Shown piece after piece: positions 8,944 to 38,503 of a DNA stretch of 64,000 nt. The notes under the pieces were generated by a model. The model searched no databases. It was not told the origin of the DNA and was given only the letters and a program-made list of their open reading frames with translations. A program made the position numbers and the translations under genes. This DNA comes from Desulfarculaceae bacterium (lineage in GTDB: Bacteria > Desulfobacterota > Desulfarculia > Desulfarculales > Desulfarculaceae), in assembly GCA_020444545.1 (NCBI GenBank), contig JAHLKT010000004.1, positions 248,001 through 312,000 of the forward strand, read 5' to 3'. Position 1 is the first letter of the stretch. Every line of letters begins with the position of its first letter.

Positions 8944-9945
8944 ATGGCCCGTAAATTGTTTATGCTCGTCGCCTGCCTCGGCCTGTTGCTGACCGCCGGG
9001 ATGGCCCAAGCCAAGACCCTCAAGTTCCAGTGCGTGTATCCCGAAACGGCCTACGCCGGCCAGACCACCAAGTTCTTCGCCGACAAGGTGAAGGAGCTGA
9101 CCAAGGGCAAGCTGGCCGTGAAGGTCTTCTGGCCCGGCCAGCTGGTCAAGTCCCGCGAGGCCCTGGAGGCTCTCAAGTCCGGCATGATCGACGGCTACTC
9201 CGGCTCCTTCCTCTACTTCACCGGCGTCTTCCCCGAGGTCAACGTGCAGTGGCTGCCCTTCAACTGGTCCAGCCCGGCCGAGGCCATGGACATCCTGCGC
9301 AACAAGGGCTACGGCAAGGTCTTCGCCGAGGCCATGAGCAAGCTGGGAGTCACCTACCTGGGCTCCATCTCCGTGGCCACCATGGGCCTGATGACCAAGT
9401 TCCCGGTCAACAGCCTGGCCGACCTGGAGGGCAAGAAGATCCGCGCCTTCGGTCTTGAGGCCCTGATCGTGCAGGCCCTGGGCGGCGCCGCCGCGGCCAT
9501 CCCCGGCGCCGAGCAGTACATGGCGCTGCAGCGCGGCACCGTGGACGGCACCGACTACCCCTGGTACACCCTGAAGAAGTACAAGCTCTACGAGGTGCTG
9601 GACTTCGTGAGCGATCCCGCCTTCCACACCCCGGGCATCATCGAGCTGGCCATCAACAGCAAGGTCATGGCCTCGCTGCCCGCCGACCAGCAGGAGGCGG
9701 TGAAGAAGGCCGCCACCATGGCCATGGACCGTTCCTTCGCCATGAGCCCCAAGTGGGACCAGGAAGCCATCGATTTCGCCAAGACCAAGAAGGTCAAGAT
9801 CATCAAGCTCTCCGACGCCGAGCTTCTCAAGTGGCGCCAGAAGCTTATGCCGCTTTACGAGCAGAGCGCGGCCAAGTCGCCCTACTGCCGCAAGCTGGTG
9901 GACATCCTCAAGGAGAACCTGAAGGCCAAGGGCGTCAAGTTCTAA
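8944..9945 (+). CDS. dctP: TRAP transporter substrate-binding protein (DctP family)
   Basis: A 333-residue periplasmic solute receptor for a tripartite ATP-independent transporter. ATG 8944 opens a Sec signal peptide (MARKLFMLVACLGLLL, cleavage near AQA-K at ~23); an in-frame ATG at 8884 would place charged residues ahead of it and is not used. The mature protein has DctP features such as WPGQLVKSREALEALKSG and LEGKKIRAFG, where the arginine normally binds the substrate carboxylate. It heads an operon with dctQ, dctM and 2-hydroxyacid oxidation genes, so an organic acid cargo is likely. The exact ligand is unknown. Confidence 0.93.
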   Translation: MARKLFMLVACLGLLLTAGMAQAKTLKFQCVYPETAYAGQTTKFFADKVKELTKGKLAVKVFWPGQLVKSREALEALKSGMIDGYSGSFLYFTGVFPEVNVQWLPFNWSSPAEAMDILRNKGYGKVFAEAMSKLGVTYLGSISVATMGLMTKFPVNSLADLEGKKIRAFGLEALIVQALGGAAAAIPGAEQYMALQRGTVDGTDYPWYTLKKYKLYEVLDFVSDPAFHTPGIIELAINSKVMASLPADQQEAVKKAATMAMDRSFAMSPKWDQEAIDFAKTKKVKIIKLSDAELLKWRQKLMPLYEQSAAKSPYCRKLVDILKENLKAKGVKF

Positions 9946-26019: not shown

Positions 26020-26091
26020 CTAGCGCACTGACGCGGGTGGACCACTCCTGTCCTCGTACCACCACCAATAACGCCAGCAGGTCGCAAACAT
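26020..26091 (-). CDS. trpL: trp operon leader peptide (23 aa)
   Basis: A 23-residue leader peptide, MFATCWRYWWWYEDRSGPP then ASVR, with Trp codons at positions 6, 9, 10 and 11 and Tyr at 8 and 12. AGGAG lies about 10 bases before the ATG. It ends 20 bases before the attenuator hairpin. Ribosome stalling at the Trp run when charged tRNA-Trp is short would free the downstream segment GGTCCAC for antitermination. Function is by analogy with known trp attenuators. Confidence 0.88.
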   Translation of the reverse strand: MFATCWRYWWWYEDRSGPPASVR

Positions 26092-26115: not shown

Positions 26116-26125
26116 TTGTATACAA
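26116..26125. promoter_or_regulatory. TTGTATACAA palindrome at the trpL promoter
   Basis: A perfect 10-bp palindrome placed just downstream of the -10 element, around the expected start of transcription. The same 10-mer occurs at the trpE-unit promoter (37781-37790). Candidate repressor operator shared by the two trp units. Confidence 0.45.
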
Positions 26126-29165: not shown

Positions 29166-29282
29166 TTATCCCTCCTCGGCACGCGAGCAGACGGTGGTAA
29201 AGTAATAAAAATAAAAATAGAAGGCGCCGGAGCTAAACTGCCCCGCGCTCTGGAAGGATATGTCGCGTCTGCTCGTGTTCAT
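29166..29282 (-). CDS. Phe/Tyr leader peptide (38 aa)
   Basis: A 38-residue ORF (ATG 29282, TAA at 29166) containing FYFYFYYF at residues 21-28, with further Phe at 10 and 16. It precedes a strong terminator hairpin and the DAHP synthase-pheA-tyrA genes, so it reads as an attenuator leader sensing both charged tRNA-Phe and tRNA-Tyr. CGAGCAGACG in codons 3-6 (29275-29266) is perfectly complementary to CGTCTGCTCG in codons 30-33 (29193-29184), bracketing the aromatic run. The ribosome-binding site is weak (AAGAGAT). Confidence 0.87.
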   Translation of the reverse strand: MNTSRRDISFQSAGQFSSGAFYFYFYYFTTVCSRAEEG

Positions 29283-29385: not shown

Positions 29386-29820
29386 TCATGCCACGCAGGT
29401 TTCGGCCAGCCATTCCAGGGCCAGGGCATAGGAGCGCCAGCCGAATCCGGCGATGGAGCCCGCCGCCGCCCCGGCCAGGTAGGACACGTGCCGGAAAGGC
29501 TCCCGGGCCGCCGGGTTGCTTAGGTGCACCTCCACCACCGGCACTCCGCAGCACAGCGCCGCATCGCGCAGAGCCACGCTGGTGTGGGTGTAAGCCGCCG
29601 CGTTGAGCACAACCCCGGCGCAGGTTTCGCCCGCCCCTTGCAGGGCGCTCACCAGCTCGCCCTCGGAGTTGGATTGCGTGAACTCCAGCTCCAGGCCCAG
29701 CTTATCGGCCTTGCCTTGCAGGCGCTGGTTGATCTCGTCCAGGGTCAGGCTGCCGTAATGCTCCGACTCGCGGCGGCCCAGCATGTTCAGGTTGGGGCCG
29801 TTGAGCACCAGGATCTTCAT
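29386..29820 (-). CDS. aroQ: 3-dehydroquinate dehydratase, type II
   Basis: A 144-residue type II dehydroquinase converting 3-dehydroquinate to 3-dehydroshikimate; it forms dodecamers in known cases. Motifs LNGPNLNMLGRRE (with the active-site Arg and Tyr region), NAAAYTHTSVALRDA and EVHLSNPAAREPFRH are complete. ATG 29820 overlaps the aroC stop (ATGA). It ends the trpE-to-aroQ unit, 33 bases before the next promoter's -35; no T-run terminator is visible. Confidence 0.96.
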   Translation of the reverse strand: MKILVLNGPNLNMLGRRESEHYGSLTLDEINQRLQGKADKLGLELEFTQSNSEGELVSALQGAGETCAGVVLNAAAYTHTSVALRDAALCCGVPVVEVHLSNPAAREPFRHVSYLAGAAAGSIAGFGWRSYALALEWLAETCVA

Positions 29821-30878
29821 GACTCGCTCCTCGCTTGGGCCTTTTGCATCAGCCAGGCGTCGGCCAGCACCAGGGCGGCCATGGCCTCGGCCACCGGCGC
29901 GATGCGCGGGCAAAGGCAGGGATCGTGGCGGCCGTGGGTTTCGATCTCCACCGCCTCGCCGCTCAGGCTCTGGGTGCGCTGGGGCCGGCCGATGGAAGGC
30001 GTGGGTTTTATGGCCAGGCGCAGCACGATGGGCATGGCGTTGCTGATGCCGCCCAGGATGCCGCCCGCGTGGTTGCTCAGGAAACCGTCCGCGTCCATCT
30101 GGTCGTTGTTGGCCGAGCCCCTGCGGCTGGCCACGGCAAAGCCGTCGCCGATCTCCACCCCCTTGACTCCGCCTATGGAGAGCATGGCTCCCCCCAGGCG
30201 GGCGTCGAGCTTGTCGAACACCGGGTCGCCCAGGCCGGCGGGCACGCCGCGAGCCACCAACTCCACCACCCCGCCCACCGAGTCGCCGGCCGCGCGGGCG
30301 GCCTGAATCTCGGCCACCATGGCCTCGGCTTGGGACGGGTCGGCCGCGCGCAGTAGGTGCCCACGGGCAAAGGCCAGGTCGATGGCCTCGGCTTTCACCG
30401 CGCCCACCTGGATGGTGTAGGCGGCCAGCTCCACGCCCAGGGGAGCCAGCACCACCCGGGCCACCGCCCCGGCGGCCACCCGGGCCCAGGTCTCGCGGCC
30501 CGAGGCGCGCCCCCCGCCCGGCTGGGGCGGGACGCCGTATTTCTGGAAGTAGGTGTAGTCCGCGTGGCCGGGGCGGAAGCGGTCGGCCAGCTTGGCGTAG
30601 TCGCCGGAGCGGGCGTCTCGGTTCCGGGTGATCATGGCGATGGGGCTGCCCAGGGTGCGGCCCTCGGCCACGCCGGAGAGTATCTCCACCTGGTCCGCCT
30701 CTTGGCGGGCGGTGGTCAGGGGTGAAGCGCCGGGACGCCGCCGGTCCAGCTCGGTCTGCACCTGCTCCGCGCTCAGGGGCAGCCCGGCGGGTACGCCCTC
30801 CACCACCGCGCCCAGACCCACGCCGTGGGATTCGCCAAAGGTGGCCACCCGGAGGATGCGTCCCATAAAGCTGCCCAT
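29817..30878 (-). CDS. aroC: chorismate synthase
   Basis: A 353-residue FMN-dependent lyase making chorismate from EPSP. FGESHGVGLGAVVEG lies near the N-terminus, and the signature RRPGASPLTTARQEADQVE and GGGRASGRETWARVAAGAV regions are present. It is tightly placed between aroKB and aroQ. Reduced flavin must come from elsewhere. Confidence 0.96.
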   Translation of the reverse strand: MGSFMGRILRVATFGESHGVGLGAVVEGVPAGLPLSAEQVQTELDRRRPGASPLTTARQEADQVEILSGVAEGRTLGSPIAMITRNRDARSGDYAKLADRFRPGHADYTYFQKYGVPPQPGGGRASGRETWARVAAGAVARVVLAPLGVELAAYTIQVGAVKAEAIDLAFARGHLLRAADPSQAEAMVAEIQAARAAGDSVGGVVELVARGVPAGLGDPVFDKLDARLGGAMLSIGGVKGVEIGDGFAVASRRGSANNDQMDADGFLSNHAGGILGGISNAMPIVLRLAIKPTPSIGRPQRTQSLSGEAVEIETHGRHDPCLCPRIAPVAEAMAALVLADAWLMQKAQARSES

Positions 30879-30879
30879 C

Positions 30880-32436
30880 TCAATCCCTCACTTGCTCGAT
30901 GGCCTTGGCCAACTCGCGCGGCTTCACGTCGTCCACCACCAGCGGCCGCCCCACGCCCTGGAGCAGCACGAAGCGCACCTTGCCGCCCTGGTTCTTCTTG
31001 TCGTTGAGCATGATCTCCCAGGCCTCCTCCGCCGGAGCCCAGGCCAGGCCAGAGGGCAGCAGGGCCCGCGAGGTCGCGATGATGCCCTCCGCCTCGCCGC
31101 CCGGCAGCAGGCCGCGTTCGGCCGAGATCGCCGCCATGACCATCATGCCCGCGGCCACGGCCTGGCCGTGCCCCAGGCGCAGCTTGTGCCAGCCTTCGAT
31201 GGCGTGGCCGTAGGTGTGGCCCAGGTTCAGTATGGCTCGGCGGCCGCCTTCGCGGAAGTCCTCGCCCACCACCTCGGCCTTGGCCCGCGCCGCCCGGCGC
31301 ACCACCTCGGCCAGGCCCAGAAGGTCGCCGCCCAGCAGGGTCTCCATTTGCCCCTGGCACAATGCGGCCAAATCGGGATCAGCCACCAGGCCGGTTTTGT
31401 AGGCCTCGGCCAGGCCCTCCACCCGCTGCTTGCGCGGCAGGGTGCCCAGGGCCTGCAAATCCAAGAGCACCGCGTGGGGCTGGATGAACACGCCCACCTG
31501 GTTCTTGGCAGCGCCCAGGTTCACCGCCGCCTTGCCGCCGATGGAGGCGTCCACACAGCCCAGCAGGGTGGTGGAGGCCAGGGCAAAGCCTAGGCCACGC
31601 TTGTAGGTGGCCCCGATAAAGGCGCCCAGGTCGGTGACCACCCCGCCGCCCAGGGCAACCAGCAGGTCGCCCCGCTCCAAGCGGGCGTCCAGCATGGCCT
31701 GGTACACCCGCTCCGCCGTGCGCAGGCTCTTGCTGCGTTCGCCCGGAGCCACCTCTATGATCACCGGGTCGCCCAGCACCTCCTGGTAGCGCGTCAGATG
31801 CAGGCCCGCCACCTTGCGGTCGGTGAGGAGTGCCGTGCGGCGGCCCTTGGTCAGCTCGCTCAGGGCGGCGGGAGCCTCCCAGGAGCTGTGCACCAGGCAC
31901 AGCCGGCCCTCCATCTCCAGGGGATACTCCTCCACTCCCAGCAGGCCGGCGGCCACGGTCTGGGCCGCCTGCTCAGCGTCCAGGCGGTCCACCTCCACCT
32001 TGAGGTCGCAATCGCCGTAGGCCTCTTGCCGGGCCTGGAAGAGCCGCTCCACCGCGCCCGCGTCCTGCCACATGGGCCGGGTGGAGACCGCGTGCGGCCC
32101 CAGGCGCTGGCGGCAGGTGTCCAGGCAGGCGTCCAGGTGCACGATGCGCCCGCTGCGGTGCATGAGCTCGCGGTTGGCCTGGCTGACCGCCGCGCCGCCG
32201 CCGGTATCCACCACCAGGCCGCTTTCCTCGGCCAGGGCGGTCAGCTCCTGGTTCTCCAGGCGGCGAAAAGCCTCCTCGCCTTTTTGGGCGAAAACCTCGG
32301 GGATGGGCTTGCCCGCCCGGCGCACGATGCGCTGGTCCAGGCTGACCAAGCGGCGGCCCAGGGCCTTGGCCAAGAGGCGGCCGACGGTGCTCTTGCCCGC
32401 GCCCATGAAGCCGGTGAGGTAGATGTTGCCGCTCAT
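30880..32436 (-). CDS. aroKB: fused shikimate kinase / 3-dehydroquinate synthase
   Basis: A 518-residue two-domain enzyme. Residues 1 to ~165 form shikimate kinase (P-loop GFMGAGKSTVGRLLAKALG, VVDTGGGAA, the RP of STRPMW). Residues ~170-518 form dehydroquinate synthase (VALGGGVVTDLGAFIGATYKRG, metal-ligand motifs EAYKTG and LGHTYGHAIEGW). The two enzymes are not consecutive in the pathway (steps 2 and 5), so fusion more likely secures equal amounts than channels an intermediate. ATGA overlap with aroE upstream. Confidence 0.94.
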   Translation of the reverse strand: MSGNIYLTGFMGAGKSTVGRLLAKALGRRLVSLDQRIVRRAGKPIPEVFAQKGEEAFRRLENQELTALAEESGLVVDTGGGAAVSQANRELMHRSGRIVHLDACLDTCRQRLGPHAVSTRPMWQDAGAVERLFQARQEAYGDCDLKVEVDRLDAEQAAQTVAAGLLGVEEYPLEMEGRLCLVHSSWEAPAALSELTKGRRTALLTDRKVAGLHLTRYQEVLGDPVIIEVAPGERSKSLRTAERVYQAMLDARLERGDLLVALGGGVVTDLGAFIGATYKRGLGFALASTTLLGCVDASIGGKAAVNLGAAKNQVGVFIQPHAVLLDLQALGTLPRKQRVEGLAEAYKTGLVADPDLAALCQGQMETLLGGDLLGLAEVVRRAARAKAEVVGEDFREGGRRAILNLGHTYGHAIEGWHKLRLGHGQAVAAGMMVMAAISAERGLLPGGEAEGIIATSRALLPSGLAWAPAEEAWEIMLNDKKNQGGKVRFVLLQGVGRPLVVDDVKPRELAKAIEQVRD

Positions 32437-33248
32437 GCCGATGTCTCCAGGGTAGCCAGGAAGCGCGCGGCCGAGACCTCACGGCCGGTCCAGCGCGTAA
32501 AGCTTAGGGCCGCCTGGGCGGCCAGCATGGGCAGGCCGTCGCAAAAGCCCGCGCCTTGTTGCCCGGCCAGGGCCGCCCAGAAATTTTCCTCGCGCCCGTA
32601 GTTGATGTCCATCACTTGCTGCAATCCTTCGGCCCGCAGGCCGGCGGCCCAGGCGGCCAGCTCGGGCGATTCCGCCTGGCTGGAGGCGCTGGCCGTGTTG
32701 ACCAGCAGGGCCGCTTCGCGGGCGGCCTCCACGGCCTGCTCCATGTCCAGGGCCTCGCCGCCCAAGGCGGCGCACAGCTCGCGGGCCTGCTCCAACCGGC
32801 GGGCGGCCACCCACAGGGGAGACGCGCCCAGATTGTACAGGGCCCGCACCACCGCCCTGGCCGCGCCTCCGGCCCCCACCACCAGGGCGGGGCGTCCGGC
32901 GGCCGCGTTGCCCGCGCCCGCCAGGGCCTCGGCGAAACCGGGGCAGTCGGTGTTGCTGCCCAGCAGGCGGCCATCCTCAACCGCGATGGTGTTCACCGCG
33001 CCCAGCAGGGCGGCCTCGTCCGTCACCTCGTGCAGAAAAGAGATCACCGCCTGCTTGTGAGGCACGGTCACGTTGACCCCGTGGAATCCCTGCTCCGCGA
33101 GGGCCTGCACGAATGCGCCCACCGCGTCAGGCTCCACGGGCAGGGCTTCGTAGCTGCCCGCCAGGCCGCACTCAGCCAGCACCGCGTTGTGCATGCGCGG
33201 CGACAGCGAGCGCAATACCCGCTGGTCTCCCATGACTCCCAGGCGCAT
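32433..33248 (-). CDS. aroE: shikimate dehydrogenase
   Basis: A 271-residue NADP-dependent enzyme reducing 3-dehydroshikimate. SLSPRMHNAVL binds substrate, GVNVTVPHK carries the catalytic lysine, GSNTDCPGF the aspartate, and VVGAGGAARAVVRAL is the nucleotide-binding loop. ATG 33248 overlaps the aroA stop by one base (TGATG) with GGAGGGG upstream; the longer frame starting at 33305 lies within aroA and is rejected. Confidence 0.95.
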   Translation of the reverse strand: MRLGVMGDQRVLRSLSPRMHNAVLAECGLAGSYEALPVEPDAVGAFVQALAEQGFHGVNVTVPHKQAVISFLHEVTDEAALLGAVNTIAVEDGRLLGSNTDCPGFAEALAGAGNAAAGRPALVVGAGGAARAVVRALYNLGASPLWVAARRLEQARELCAALGGEALDMEQAVEAAREAALLVNTASASSQAESPELAAWAAGLRAEGLQQVMDINYGREENFWAALAGQQGAGFCDGLPMLAAQAALSFTRWTGREVSAARFLATLETSA

Positions 33249-34495
33249 CAAGAAACCAGCCCCTCCAGGTCGCGGTAAAAGTCCGGATAAGATACCCCAG
33301 CGCACTCGGCCTGCGCCACCTTGGGCAGCGCGCCGTTGAGCAGCCCGGCCACGGCCAGGGTCATGGCGATGCGGTGATCGCCGAAGGACTCGTACTGGCC
33401 GCTGGTGTCCAGGGGTGTGGGGCCCTCGATGATCAGGTCGTCGCCGTCCTCGCGCAGGCTTGCGCTCATGGCGCCCAGCTGGCTGGTTATGGCGGCCAGG
33501 CGGTCCGACTCCTTCACCCGCAGCTCGCCCACCGCGCGCATGATGGTGGTGCCTTCGGCCTGGCTGGCGGCCAGGGCCAGGATGGGCACCTCGTCCACCA
33601 ACAGGGGGATCTCTTCGGCCAACACCTCGGTGGCCCGCAGGCTCGGGCTGTAGCTAGCTGTCACCCGGCCCCAGGGCTCGGGGGTGGCGCCCTGCTCCTC
33701 GATGGTCAGCTCCGCGCCCATGCGCTCCAGCACGGTGAGAAGGCCGATGCGCGTGGGGTTGAGGCCCACGCCCTCGCACACCACCCGGCTGCCCGGAATG
33801 ATCAGCGCGGCCACGATCATGAAGGCGGCGGCCGAGATGTCGCCCGGCACCCGCAGGCTCTCGGGTAAGGTGAGCCCCGAGGGCCTCACCCGCCAGCCGC
33901 CCTCGGCCGGGGCCAGGTCCGCGCCCATGGCCGTGAACAACAGCTCGGTGTGGTCCCGGCTGGGGTGGGGCTCGCGCACGATGGTCTCGCCCTCGGCCTG
34001 GAGCCCGGCCAAAAGCAGGGCGCTCTTGAGCTGGGCGCTGGCCACGGCCAGATCGAAGCGCTGGCCGGTCAGCGCGCGGCCCTCGATGCTCAGCGGCGGG
34101 CGTCCGTCGGTGGTGGTCACGCTGGCGCCCATCTGGTTGAGCGGGTCGGCCACCCGGGCCATGGGTCGCCGCCGCAAGGACTCGTCACCGTCCAGGGAAT
34201 AACGGCCCGGCCGCCCGGCCAAGAGGCCGGTCAACAGGCGCATGGTGGTGCCCGAGTTGCCGCAGTCCACGGCCACGCTGCTCAGGGTGCCTTCCGCGCC
34301 GTGCACCAGCAGGGCCTCGCCCTCGGCCTCGACCTTGCCACCCAGGGCGCGCACCGCGTTCACGGTGCTGGCGCAGTCCGCGCAGGGCGAGAAGTTCTGC
34401 ACCCGGCAGACGCCCCTGGCCAGCAAGGAGAACAGGGCCACGCGGTGGGAGATGGACTTGTCCCCCGGCGGGGTCACCGATCCGTTCAGGCTCAT
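33248..34495 (-). CDS. aroA: 3-phosphoshikimate 1-carboxyvinyltransferase (EPSP synthase)
   Basis: A 415-residue two-domain inverted beta-alpha barrel protein transferring the enolpyruvyl group from PEP to shikimate 3-phosphate. [10 protein letters not shown] at the N-terminus, [16 protein letters not shown] and the conserved [12 protein letters not shown] segment are present. ATG 34495 overlaps the stop of the DAHP synthase gene (ATGA). Confidence 0.96.
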
Positions 34496-35532
34496 GCCGA
34501 GGCCTCCCGCACCCTGCGGCCCACCGCGGCGGCCACCCCGCGCAGGCCGTCCATCATGGCCGCGAACTCCTCGGGCCGTAGGCTCTGGCGGCCGTCGCTA
34601 AAGGCTTCCTCGGGCTTGGGATGCACCTCCACCAAAAGGCCGTCCGCCCCGGCGGCCACGGCGGCCAGGGCCAGGGAGGGCACCAGCTCGCGCTTGCCCG
34701 CCGCGTGGCTGGGGTCCACCACCACGGGGAGGTGGGTGTACTGCTTTAAGAGAGGCACGGCCGAGAGGTCCAGGGTGTTGCGGGTCTCGGTCTCAAAGGT
34801 GCGAATGCCCCGCTCGCAGAGCATCACCTGCCAGTTGCCCCGGGCCAGGATGTACTCGGCCGACAAGAGCAGCTCCTTGATGGAGGCCATCATGCCGCGC
34901 TTCAAGAGCACCGGCCGGTCGGTGTCGCCCACCGCCTCCAGGAGCGAAAAGTTCTGCATGTTGCGGGTGCCGATCTGCAAGACATCGGCGTAGCGCGCCA
35001 CCAGGGGCACCTCCGAGGCGCTGAGCACCTCGGTGATGATGGGCAGGCCGGTCATCTCGCGGGCCTCGGCCATGATCTTGAGCCCCTCCTCGCCCAGGCC
35101 CCGGAAAGAGTAGGGGCTGGAGCGCGGCTTGAAGGCCCCGCCCCGCAAGGCCCCGGCCCCGGCCCGGTCCAGGAGGGCGGCGGTCTCCAAAAAGTTTTCG
35201 CGGCTCTCCACCGCGCAGGGGCCGCCCACCACCAGCACCTCGGGCCCGCCCACGCTGATGCTGCCCAGGTCAATGACCGTGGGCTGGTCGCGGAAGCTCT
35301 TGGATGCCAGCTTCCAGGACTTCTCGAAGTTGGTGATCTCCTCCACCCCGGGGAGTCCGCCGATTTCCTGGCCCAGGCGCTTGGCCTCGGCCTGGCTGAT
35401 CTCCTCCACCACTCCCAGCACCACCTGGGGGTCGGGCGAGATGATGCGCGGCTCCAAGCCCGCGTCGCGCAGGGTGGAGATTACCTTGGCCACCTCCATC
35501 TTGGGGCAGCCTTGTTGCATGGTGATGACCAT
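34492..35532 (-). CDS. aroF: DAHP synthase, type I-beta, with N-terminal ferredoxin-like regulatory domain
   Basis: A 346-residue first-step enzyme. Residues 1-~75 form a ferredoxin-like domain like the one that mediates Tyr/Phe feedback in Thermotoga DAHP synthase; the barrel follows ([50 protein letters not shown]). It is a paralogue of the enzyme at 28134-29036, which lacks the N-domain. Third gene of the trpE unit, 13 bases after trpG. Sensitivity to specific amino acids cannot be read. Confidence 0.94.
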
Positions 35533-35545
35533 GATCGCTCCTCGT

Positions 35546-36172
35546 CTAGACCGCGGGGGCCGCGCCCAGGCTATCGCCCGCGCCGTTAAGGGGCAGAGCG
35601 TGCTCCAGGTGCCGGCGCAGGAAGTTCTTGAACAACAGCACCCCCTGGGCGGTGGCGATGGACTCGGGGTGGAACTGCACCCCTTCCACCGGCAGCTCTT
35701 TGTGCCGCAGCCCCATCACCTCGCCCTCCAGGGTGTAGGCCGAGATGACCAGCGGGGCCTTAACGCTGTCCTCGGGCACCACCAGGGAATGGTAGCGCGC
35801 GGCCACGAAAGGATTGCGCAGGCCGGCGTAGAGGCCCCGCGCGTCGTGGAACACCTCGGAGACCTTGCCGTGCATGGGCTTGTTGGAGCGCACCACCTTG
35901 GCCCCGAACACCTGGGCGATGGCCTGGTGCCCAAGACATACACCAAGAATGGGGAAGCTGCCCGCGTAGCGCTCGATGGCCGCGCAGGAGATGCCCGCGT
36001 CCTCGGGGCGGCCCGGCCCGGGCGAGATGATCAGGGCCTCGGGCTCCAGCTCGCCGATGGCCTCCACCGGCACCACGTCGTTGCGCATCACCTCCAGCTC
36101 GCAGCCCAGGGCGCCCAGGGCCTGCACGATGTTGTAGGTGAAGGAATCGTAATTGTCGATTACCGCGATCAT
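35546..36172 (-). CDS. trpG: anthranilate synthase component II (glutamine amidotransferase)
   Basis: A 208-residue class-I amidotransferase supplying ammonia to TrpE. The nucleophile lies in [11 protein letters not shown] and the His-Glu pair in [23 protein letters not shown] opens the protein. ATG 36172 overlaps the trpE stop (ATGA). In some bacteria such a subunit also serves aminodeoxychorismate synthase; that is possible here. Confidence 0.94.
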
Positions 36173-37557
36173 GCCTGCCCCTCCGCGGCCAGGCGCAGAG
36201 CGGCGATGCCCTGCCCCGCCTTGTGGCAAATCTCCTCGTACTCCATGGCCGGGTCGCTGTCGGCCACGATGCCCGCGCCCACCTGCAACACGAAGCGGCC
36301 CTCCTGGAACTGGATGGTGCGGATGCCGATGCAGGTGTCCATGTATTGCCCCGGCCCGAAGCAGCCCACCGCCCCGCCGTAGGGGCCCCGGGCCACACCC
36401 TCCAGCTCGTTGATGATCTCCATGGCCCGCACCTTGGGCGCGCCGGACAGGGTGCCCGCCGGGAAGGAAGCCCTAAAGGCGTCCCACACCTTGAGCTCCG
36501 GGTCCACCTCGCCCTCCACCTGGGAAACGATGTGCATCACGTGGCTGTAGCGCTCCACGGTCATGTAGGGCTCCACCTCCACCGTGCCGTAGCGGCTCAC
36601 CCGGCCGGCGTCGTTGCGGGCCAGGTCCACCAGCATCACGTGCTCGGCCCGCTCCTTGGGCGAGGCCATCATCTCCTGCTCCAGGGCGCGGTCCTGGGCC
36701 GGGTCGGCCGAGCGGCCCCGGGTGCCGGCGATGGGCCGGAGCATGACCCGGCCGTTCTCCACCTTGACCAGGGTCTCGGGCGAGGAGCCCACCAAATGGA
36801 AGTCCGGGAACTTGAGAAAGAACATGTAGGGCGAGGGGCTCTTTACGCGCAACCAGCGGTACACGGCCAGGGGGTCCAGGTCCGTGGTGCCGGTGAATCG
36901 GGCCGAGGGCACTACCTGGAAGATGTCACCGGCCATGATGTATTCCTTGGCCTTTTCCACCGCGGCCATGAAGGGCTCAGCCTCGGGCGGGGTCACCTCC
37001 ACGCTGCCCGGCTCGGTGGACAGGCGCGCCGCCCGGTGCAGGCCCTCGTTGATCTCGCCCAGCATGGCCTTGCCCGCGTCATCGCTCTCGGCCAGGGCCA
37101 CCAGGGTCAGCTTGCGCTGGAGGTGGTCGAAGATGGCGAAGCGGGAGGGGAAGCAGAGCCGGGCCACGGGCAGATGGTGGGGCGCGATGGGGGGCAGCTT
37201 TTCCACCAGGCGAACCGCCTCGTAGCCCACATAGCCCATGAGCGAACCCACGAAGGGCAGCGGAGGCAGGCCCTCGCAGGCCAGCTCGTCCATCACCCCC
37301 TGGGCCACGTCGAAGAACTCGGACGCCGGGTGCTCCGCGATCTGGCCGCCGTGGTCCACCACCACGGTGTCCGGCTCCAGACGCAGGCTGGTTACCGGGT
37401 CCCAGGCCACGATGGAGTAGCGGCCCACGTTCTCCACCCCCTCCGCGCTCTCGAACAGGAAGGAGTTGTCTTCCCCGGAGCAGAGCTTCACATAGGCCGA
37501 GACCGGCGTGTCGGCATCGGCCAGCAGTTCGCGCGTATAGGCTTTCAGCATTGCCAT
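36169..37557 (-). CDS. trpE: anthranilate synthase component I
   Basis: A 462-residue chorismate-utilising enzyme making anthranilate. FLFESAEGVENVGRYS near residue 40 matches the tryptophan feedback-site motif. The catalytic part shows GDIFQVVPSARF, PIAGTRGRSADPAQD, DLARNDAGRVS and SFPAGTLSGAPKVRAME. ATG 37557 has GGGGA upstream; ATG 37551 is the alternative. It leads an eight-gene unit that also makes chorismate, so its leader controls the common pathway too. Confidence 0.95.
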   Translation of the reverse strand: MAMLKAYTRELLADADTPVSAYVKLCSGEDNSFLFESAEGVENVGRYSIVAWDPVTSLRLEPDTVVVDHGGQIAEHPASEFFDVAQGVMDELACEGLPPLPFVGSLMGYVGYEAVRLVEKLPPIAPHHLPVARLCFPSRFAIFDHLQRKLTLVALAESDDAGKAMLGEINEGLHRAARLSTEPGSVEVTPPEAEPFMAAVEKAKEYIMAGDIFQVVPSARFTGTTDLDPLAVYRWLRVKSPSPYMFFLKFPDFHLVGSSPETLVKVENGRVMLRPIAGTRGRSADPAQDRALEQEMMASPKERAEHVMLVDLARNDAGRVSRYGTVEVEPYMTVERYSHVMHIVSQVEGEVDPELKVWDAFRASFPAGTLSGAPKVRAMEIINELEGVARGPYGGAVGCFGPGQYMDTCIGIRTIQFQEGRFVLQVGAGIVADSDPAMEYEEICHKAGQGIAALRLAAEGQA

Positions 37558-37579: not shown

Positions 37580-37614
37580 AAAGAAAAAGCCCACCGTCTG
37601 AGTGACGGTGGGCT
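37580..37614 (-). terminator. trpE-unit attenuator terminator
   Basis: On the minus strand AGCCCACCGTC (37614-37604) pairs with GACGGTGGGCT (37598-37588) over 11 bp with loop ACTCA, followed by TTTTCTTT. Segment GACGGTGCGCT in the leader ORF (37672-37662) can pair with the first arm at 10 of 11 positions, forming the antiterminator. Confidence 0.9.
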
Positions 37615-37638
37615 CTAAGTCTTGGTCGGGGGTTGGTT

Positions 37639-37779
37639 CTAGTCGGTCACATCCCCGGTGGAGCGCACCGTCAGCGGTGGACGCCACCAATAAAACCAGA
37701 GGCCAAACACGGGCACACCAGCGCCAGCCGCCTGGGGGCAGAGGCCGGAGTTGCTCGGGTTTTGGCTGCGGTCAGTCAT
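37639..37779 (-). CDS. trpE-unit leader peptide (46 aa)
   Basis: An ORF from ATG 37779 to TAG 37639 (46 residues) with Trp at 28, 31 and 32 in LWFYWWRPPLT, plus Phe 25, 29 and Tyr 30. GGAGA lies about 12 bases before the ATG; an internal GTG at 37710 would give a 23-residue version with all Trp codons. The codons after the Trp pair (37684-37675) pair with 37672-37663 in a protector hairpin. Between this leader's promoter and the next gene (37835-37879) nothing further was recognised. Confidence 0.85.
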   Translation of the reverse strand: MTDRSQNPSNSGLCPQAAGAGVPVFGLWFYWWRPPLTVRSTGDVTD

Positions 37780-37780
37780 T

Positions 37781-37790
37781 TTGTATACAA
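37781..37790. promoter_or_regulatory. TTGTATACAA palindrome at the trpE-unit leader
   Basis: Identical to the 10-mer at 26116-26125. Here it lies between the GGAG site and the leader ATG, shortly after the expected transcription start. Candidate operator or translational element shared by the two trp units and absent from the Phe/Tyr unit. Confidence 0.45.
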
Positions 37791-37806
37791 TCTCCAATTC
37801 CTGCTC

Positions 37807-37834
37807 AGTATGACCCTGGGCGGAATTTTGTCAA
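37807..37834 (-). promoter_or_regulatory. promoter of the trpE unit
   Basis: -35 TTGACA (37834-37829, perfect) and -10 CATACT (37812-37807, 4 of 6) with a 16-bp spacer. Transcription would start near 37800, about 20 bases before the leader ATG. Confidence 0.65.
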
Positions 37835-37879: not shown

Positions 37880-38503
37880 TTAATAGCGTTCGCTGGCGTC
37901 GGCCTTATTGGAATAGCCCCGCTTCTCCCAGTAGCCCTTCACCGGCTTGGCCAAAACTTCGATGCGGGTGATCCACTTGGCCCACTTGTAGCCCAGCTTG
38001 CCCGGCGCCACCAGTTGGAAGGGCCAGCCCCGGGTGGCGTCCAACTCCAGGCCGTTGATGCGGTAGCCCAACAAGATTTTGTCGCCGCTCAGATACTTGA
38101 GCGGCAGGCCGGTGGAGTAACCCTCCACCGAGTGGAACATCACAAAGGCGGCCTCGGGTTTGACCCCGGCCAAGGCCAGCAGCTCACGGATGCGCGGCCC
38201 CTGGTAGAGCAAGGTCTCGGTCCAGCCCTCCACGCAGGGCATGAGCACCACTTCCTTGACCGAAGGCAGAGCGGTCACCTGCTGATAGGTGAGCGACTGG
38301 GGCCGCTCCACCAGGCCGTCGATCTTGAGGCGGTAGGCCTTGCGGTCCACCTTTTGGGGCCCGCGAATGGAATTGTCGTACTCGCGGTGATAGGGGCTCA
38401 GCTTCTTGCCCTGAAAGGTCTTTATCTCCTGCCCGGCCAAAGCCGCCGGGGCCAGGCCCAGGGCCAAGATCAAAACCGCTATGCTGAAAACGCGCATGGA
38501 CAT
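37880..38503 (-). CDS. small sulfite-oxidase-fold molybdopterin protein, Sec-type signal
   Basis: A 207-residue exported protein with the oxidoreductase molybdopterin-binding (sulfite oxidase/MsrP) fold. The molybdenum-ligating cysteine lies in VVLMPCVEGWTETLLYQG, and LDATRGWPFQLVAPGKLGYKWAKWI resembles the conserved cofactor-pocket segment. A signal peptide (RVFSIAVLILALGLAPAALA, cleavage ~23) is clear but has no twin-arginine motif, and a TAG stop lies 10 codons upstream, so none was missed. This is unusual for a molybdoenzyme, the more so next to tatBC. Substrate and partner are unknown. Confidence 0.82.
   Translation of the reverse strand: MSMRVFSIAVLILALGLAPAALAGQEIKTFQGKKLSPYHREYDNSIRGPQKVDRKAYRLKIDGLVERPQSLTYQQVTALPSVKEVVLMPCVEGWTETLLYQGPRIRELLALAGVKPEAAFVMFHSVEGYSTGLPLKYLSGDKILLGYRINGLELDATRGWPFQLVAPGKLGYKWAKWITRIEVLAKPVKGYWEKRGYSNKADASERY

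Follow-up and report, generated by a model that had tools for sequence, protein, structure and literature searches.

The trpE unit of this Desulfarculaceae genome is very probably governed by a ribosome-mediated transcription attenuator, located in the leader of trpE-trpG-aroF-aroA-aroE-aroKB-aroC-aroQ, on which Phe and Tyr would act as a second, weaker input. The leader is on the minus strand of the window, the whole 64,000-nucleotide stretch that was analyzed. The leader ORF, its WFYWW codon run, the antiterminator, and the terminator with its U-run are all found where the sequence-only reading had placed them. The interpretation of these elements as an attenuator has also held, since spacing, complementarity and terminator are conserved in 16 orthologous loci and a stall model agrees.

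The first gene of the unit, trpE (36169..37557, minus strand), encodes anthranilate synthase component I; its best NCBIfam model is TIGR00564 (trpE_most) with 492 bits, about 25 bits under the 518-bit cut-off of that model. It is followed on the same strand by trpG (35546..36172; TIGR00566, above cut-off), which overlaps the trpE stop, by the DAHP synthase gene aroF1 (34492..35532; TIGR01361, above cut-off), and by aroA, aroE, an aroK-aroB fusion, aroC, and aroQ, the remainder of the chorismate unit (29386..34495). The NCBIfam scan covered trpE, trpG, DAHP synthase, aroA, the aroK-aroB fusion, aroF2, pheA, and trpD. The products of trpG, both DAHP synthase genes, aroA, pheA, and trpD are over their cut-offs and aroB is slightly below its own; aroE, aroC, aroQ, and tyrA are identified by reading and co-linear homologues only. 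Because the genome has a single TrpE match, the trpE unit is expected to provide both the anthranilate needed for Trp and the chorismate needed for all the aromatics.

Upstream of trpE, a sigma-70-like candidate promoter, TTGACA-16-CATACT, occupies 37807..37834 of the minus strand (10/12 in a consensus scan). Between this promoter-like pair and the leader ORF is a ribosome-binding site, GGAGA (37795-37791, minus strand). The ORF itself, MTDRSQNPSNSGLCPQAAGAGVPVFGLWFYWWRPPLTVRSTGDVTD, has 46 codons (37639..37779, minus strand), with the start ATG at 37779-37777 and the stop TAG at 37641-37639, and has orthologous ORFs in the 16 loci. It reads ...VPVFGLWFYWWRPPLTVRSTGDVTD and includes the control codons Trp28 Phe29 Tyr30 Trp31 Trp32 (TGG TTT TAT TGG TGG; 37684..37698, minus strand), after which 14 residues remain to the end of the peptide.

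Four minus-strand segments make up the hairpins. Segment 1, the protector arm (37675..37684), is GCG.TC.CACCG; segment 2, GACGGTGCGCTC (37661..37672), has segment 1 or segment 3 as alternative partners; segment 3 is GAGCCCACCGTC (37604..37615); and segment 4 is GACGGTGGGCT with the U-rich terminator tail (37581..37598). Between the leader ORF and the first structural gene, trpE, is an intrinsic terminator with the arms previously proposed for it, 37614-37604 (AGCCCACCGTC) and 37598-37588, which pair at 11/11 positions and are followed by the U-rich tail. In a terminator scan the stem lengthens to 13 pairs (37616-37586), and trpE follows at 37557. The antiterminator, 37672-37662 with 37614-37604, has the expected 10 Watson-Crick pairs out of 11; when the 67 nt from Trp32 to the terminator were dinucleotide-shuffled 20,000 times, 18 of the shuffles reached this match. 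Segments 2 (37672-37661) and 4 (37598-37588) are near-identical, so that both are complementary to segment 3, and the use of 37614-37604 by both structures makes antiterminator and terminator mutually exclusive. The folding energy of the leader fragment is -59.2 kcal/mol (z -6.5). The protector needed correction. The proposed pairing of 37684-37675 exists, but it is not a run of ten continuous pairs; it consists of GCG (37684-37682)/CGC and CACCG (37679-37675)/CGGTG, that is 3 + 5 pairs separated by a 2-nt bulge, with -8.5 kcal/mol. Its z is -1.7 in the window and averages -0.9 over the 16 orthologues, four of which are above 0. It is present in the window and the genus but is no better than shuffles in several distant relatives; outside close relatives it is the weakest element, weakly supported when taken alone.

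From this arrangement we infer the following course of events. RNA polymerase would start near 37800, with a ribosome translating the leader ORF behind it. Scarcity of Trp-tRNA would halt this ribosome at Trp31/Trp32, where it covers segment 1; segment 2 would then pair with segment 3, the 3:4 terminator would not form, and trpE to aroQ would be transcribed. When Trp is plentiful the ribosome would proceed over segment 2, and behind it segment 1 would pair with segment 2; the 3:4 hairpin would then form, and transcription would end near 37581. A stall at Phe29/Tyr30 would most likely take away part of segment 1 and in this way provide the second, weaker input.

A stall model behaves in this manner; for each A-site codon of 16 leaders it folds the RNA that begins at the ribosome edge (P-site +16) and ends with segment 3. 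Mean antiterminator pairing is 0.84 for A sites no further along than the last Trp and declines to 0.66 at the next codon and 0.38 at the one after. The last A-site codon that leaves segment 2 wholly free is the last Trp or its neighbor, and a 2-nt shift of the assumed footprint edge moves this result by about one codon. Stalling at the control codons is thus modeled to free segment 2, and transit past them to cover it. The protector was folded before segment 3 emerges. Across the leaders, its pairing starts at about 0.5 while the ribosome is still upstream, drops to 0.27 at A-site codon -3 (mostly Phe) and 0.16 at -2 (mostly Tyr), and reaches 0.02 at codon -1 (the first Trp) and 0.00 at the last Trp. 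The claim that a ribosome stalled at Trp31-Trp32 covers the protector is matched by the model, which leaves 0.01 of the pairing at Trp31 and 0.00 at Trp32. The stepwise loss predicts that Trp is a strong input and that Phe and Tyr are partial ones. Equilibrium folding of the RNA up to segment 3 in the absence of a ribosome favors the antiterminator (0.83), so termination should depend on ribosome transit and timing; when Trp is ample it would have to result from the passage of the ribosome across segment 2, from the protector forming behind it, and from the speed of 3:4 formation.

TrpE matches are present in 18 of the 21 genomes of the order, and 16 orthologous loci from the same family, window included, were compared (TrpE identity of the relatives, 58-90%). 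A leader ORF is found in all 16, as is a terminator whose core is CCCACC. The tandem Trp codons of the leader ORF are kept in the orthologues, and the N-terminal part of the peptide has diverged beyond recognition among distant members. The distance from the last Trp codon to the start of segment 2 is 8-11 nt in 15 of the 16 loci when pairing is ungapped; in the remaining locus, G015, a bulged fold places the start of segment 2 at 11. Segments 2 and 3 covary, with GA:TC in the window and GG:CC in G001 and G010. A locus's own segment 2/3 partners beat swapped ones except in 13 of 20,000 permutations, in which relatedness was not removed. Segment pairs were counted by register-based pairing. Pair counting on the MAFFT alignment A1 was rejected because some segments are out of place in it: segment 3 in G001, and segment 2 in the G012/G013/G017 group.

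These comparisons bear on one rival, namely that an upstream transcript ends here at an ordinary intrinsic terminator and that the short ORF with Trp codons is there by chance. The upstream gene spans 37880-38503, and the terminator, sited between it and trpE, would also end transcripts that run on from it. The promoter-like site, however, lies between the upstream gene and the leader ORF, and orthologues retain the ORF with its Trp pair and the spacing of 8-11 nt even though the peptide has diverged. Moreover, the leader detector gives almost no hits on shuffled sequence: of 60 trpE loci from across the phylum, chosen by TrpE similarity, a Trp-run leader with a terminator was found in 26, compared with 0-1 of 60 for shuffles and none on the reverse strand. 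An ordinary terminator is therefore extremely unlikely.

Control without a ribosome, through a T-box, TRAP, or a repressor acting alone at TTGTATACAA, is another explanation that has to be weighed. The palindrome TTGTATACAA is in the interval between the ribosome-binding site and the leader start (37781..37790), and its copy counts speak for this explanation. Only four copies occur across the 4.4-Mb genome; two of these are in the window (37781-37790 and 26116-26125), both before trp units, at the promoters of the trpE and trpD leaders. The GTATAC core is found upstream of 13/17 trpE, 7/11 trpD, and 0/11 aroF2 units. TTGTATACAA is thus a possible operator for a Trp-specific regulator. TrpR was considered as that regulator and rejected, because the genome has no TrpR. 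At gathering score the window contains neither a T-box nor any other Rfam family, and the Rfam amino-acid leader families give no match at E up to 5. Weak matches to suhB/mmgR that span the terminator (E 0.007) reach 24 bits where the gathering score is 41, and were taken as chance. A repressor bound to a DNA operator could act additionally, but alone it leaves the exclusive hairpins and the control codons unexplained. Control of this kind without a ribosome is very unlikely, and ribosome-mediated attenuation remains the preferred reading.

The sequence-only reading further suggested that the leader may sense more than Trp. The 26 Trp-run leaders found across the phylum have no aro gene after trpE in the stretch examined, and none of them has Phe or Tyr at both codons before the Trp run, whereas 14 of 17 aro-linked leaders do (Fisher p 9e-9, with independence overstated because the sequences are related). 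Such a Phe/Tyr pair was counted by eye in 1 of 17 trpD leaders of the family, the second leader of G004. The codons before the Trp pair vary yet stay aromatic (TTT TAT, TAC TAC, TAC TAT, TAT TTC). A strict correspondence between aro genes and Phe/Tyr codons fails, because G001 (WRRW) and G015 (WRGGWW) have aro genes and lack Phe/Tyr before the Trp codons; in G006, Leu replaces Phe29 to give Leu-Tyr. These three loci favor a Trp-only attenuator, with the same mechanism and no measurable input from Phe/Tyr codons, as does the prediction that a Trp stall alone would fully remove the protector. Against it are the unequal distribution of the Phe/Tyr pair between aro-linked and trp-only leaders and the persistence of aromatic codons through changes of codon while the N-terminus of the peptide diverges. 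The Trp-only alternative is a serious one, at somewhat less than an even chance. The suggestion of wider sensing thus stands in part: the comparison backs a Phe/Tyr input at the trpE leader, which is not proven, is probably weaker than Trp, and is partial in the stall model.

Two further leaders are present downstream in the window, both on the minus strand. The second leader ORF, MNTSRRDISFQSAGQFSSGAFYFYFYYFTTVCSRAEEG (29166..29282), precedes aroF2-pheA-tyrA and has its terminator at about 29133-29090; it reads ...AFYFYFYYFTT..., with the run FYFYFYYF and no Trp. The third, MFATCWRYWWWYEDRSGPPASVR (26020..26091), precedes trpDCFBA, has its terminator at about 26000-25955, and reads ...CWRYWWWYEDRS..., with the codon run WRYWWWY. 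The terminator after each is strong, and orthologues exist for both leaders. The gene order trpE-trpG-aroF-aroA-aroE-aroKB-aroC-aroQ, then aroF2-pheA-tyrA, then trpD-C-F-B-A is conserved wherever contigs extend far enough, with two exceptions: the cluster of G001 stops at aroQ, and tyrA, trpC, trpB, and trpA were not detected in the stretch from G011. Taken together, the three leaders suggest branch-specific tuning by codons. In the fullest form of this idea the leaders form a composite sensor: the trpE-unit attenuator would read Phe, Tyr, and Trp-Trp in graded strength, of its two sisters, the aroF2-pheA-tyrA leader would read only Phe/Tyr and the trpDCFBA leader mainly Trp, and codon choice alone would allocate flux among the three branches. 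We regard the chances for and against this proposal as evenly balanced.

Several relatives depart from the arrangement in the window. A single trpD leader is present in the window, G008, and G013. In other relatives a tandem pair of leader-peptide attenuators precedes trpD (L025:2453-2932, L026:12903-13322); tandem trpD leaders are also found upstream of trpD in G006, G002, G005, G011, and G019, and in G007 the tandem consists of MFNNVWRYWWQSWNRSGPPAPRR and then MKPQRRQKRSLYRWRWWRFTGRESVLP, each with its own terminator. In G013 (L031, above position 9156) the first aroF2 terminator has no distinct U-run and is followed by another hairpin, AAGGAGCCCTGGG..CCCAGGGCTCCTT. A genome from another family of the phylum, G119, has nearly the same cluster minus the first DAHP synthase, with an FLFYWW leader. 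The TrpE of G119 (L151) has a considerably higher score than those elsewhere in the phylum, which suggests transfer or retention. Its leader of the second type includes a Trp (YFYFWRYYY).

Attenuation of trp operons is textbook knowledge. The ribosome-mediated mechanism proposed here is that of the Escherichia coli trpL attenuator (PMC1183508). Both leaders have tandem Trp codons with an Arg codon next to them, segments 1-4, and a 3:4 terminator opposed to a 2:3 antiterminator, and in both, here by prediction, a stall at the Trp codons prevents 1:2 pairing. They differ in that the E. coli leader has 14 codons and the one described here 46. The longer ORF spans segments 1 and 2 and stops 19 nt beyond segment 2, so that a ribosome paused at its stop codon, unlike one on E. 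coli trpL, would not cover segment 2. In addition, Phe and Tyr codons directly precede the Trp pair here, the genes controlled would be trpEG and the chorismate pathway instead of trp genes only, and the genome is without a detected TrpR. In Sinorhizobium meliloti, where the trp genes are also divided among separate operons, trpE(G) is attenuated by the trpL-trpE(G) leader, but this leader peptide has 14 aa, and the description of the system (PMC7298713) does not link trpE(G) with shikimate genes. The 26 other trp leaders of the phylum share the short ORF with a Trp run and the terminator before trpE, and differ in the two features already described, the lack of a following aro gene and of a Phe/Tyr pair. 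Control codons for several pathway products in one leader are familiar from the enterobacterial ilvGMEDA and thr leaders. In those leaders the codons are intermixed in one stall region, whereas here Phe/Tyr precede the Trp pair and only the Trp pair is predicted to abolish the protector. In the literature searched, no leader was found described that heads the common aromatic pathway with codons for all three end products. A search of the open-access literature for leader control in Deltaproteobacteria, Desulfovibrio, Geobacter, or Desulfobacterota found nothing relevant, which is weak evidence of absence; in this phylum, amino-acid genes seem to have been little studied for control by leaders. 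The trpE-unit leader is notable because its codons match the broader product set that its operon feeds, and the cluster offers a natural experiment of three adjacent leaders, each apparently codon-tuned to a different branch. Judged by its conservation among relatives, the trpE-unit leader is a real attenuator, one that varies from the textbook form in its codon set, in the extent of its ORF, and in the block of the pathway that it would control.
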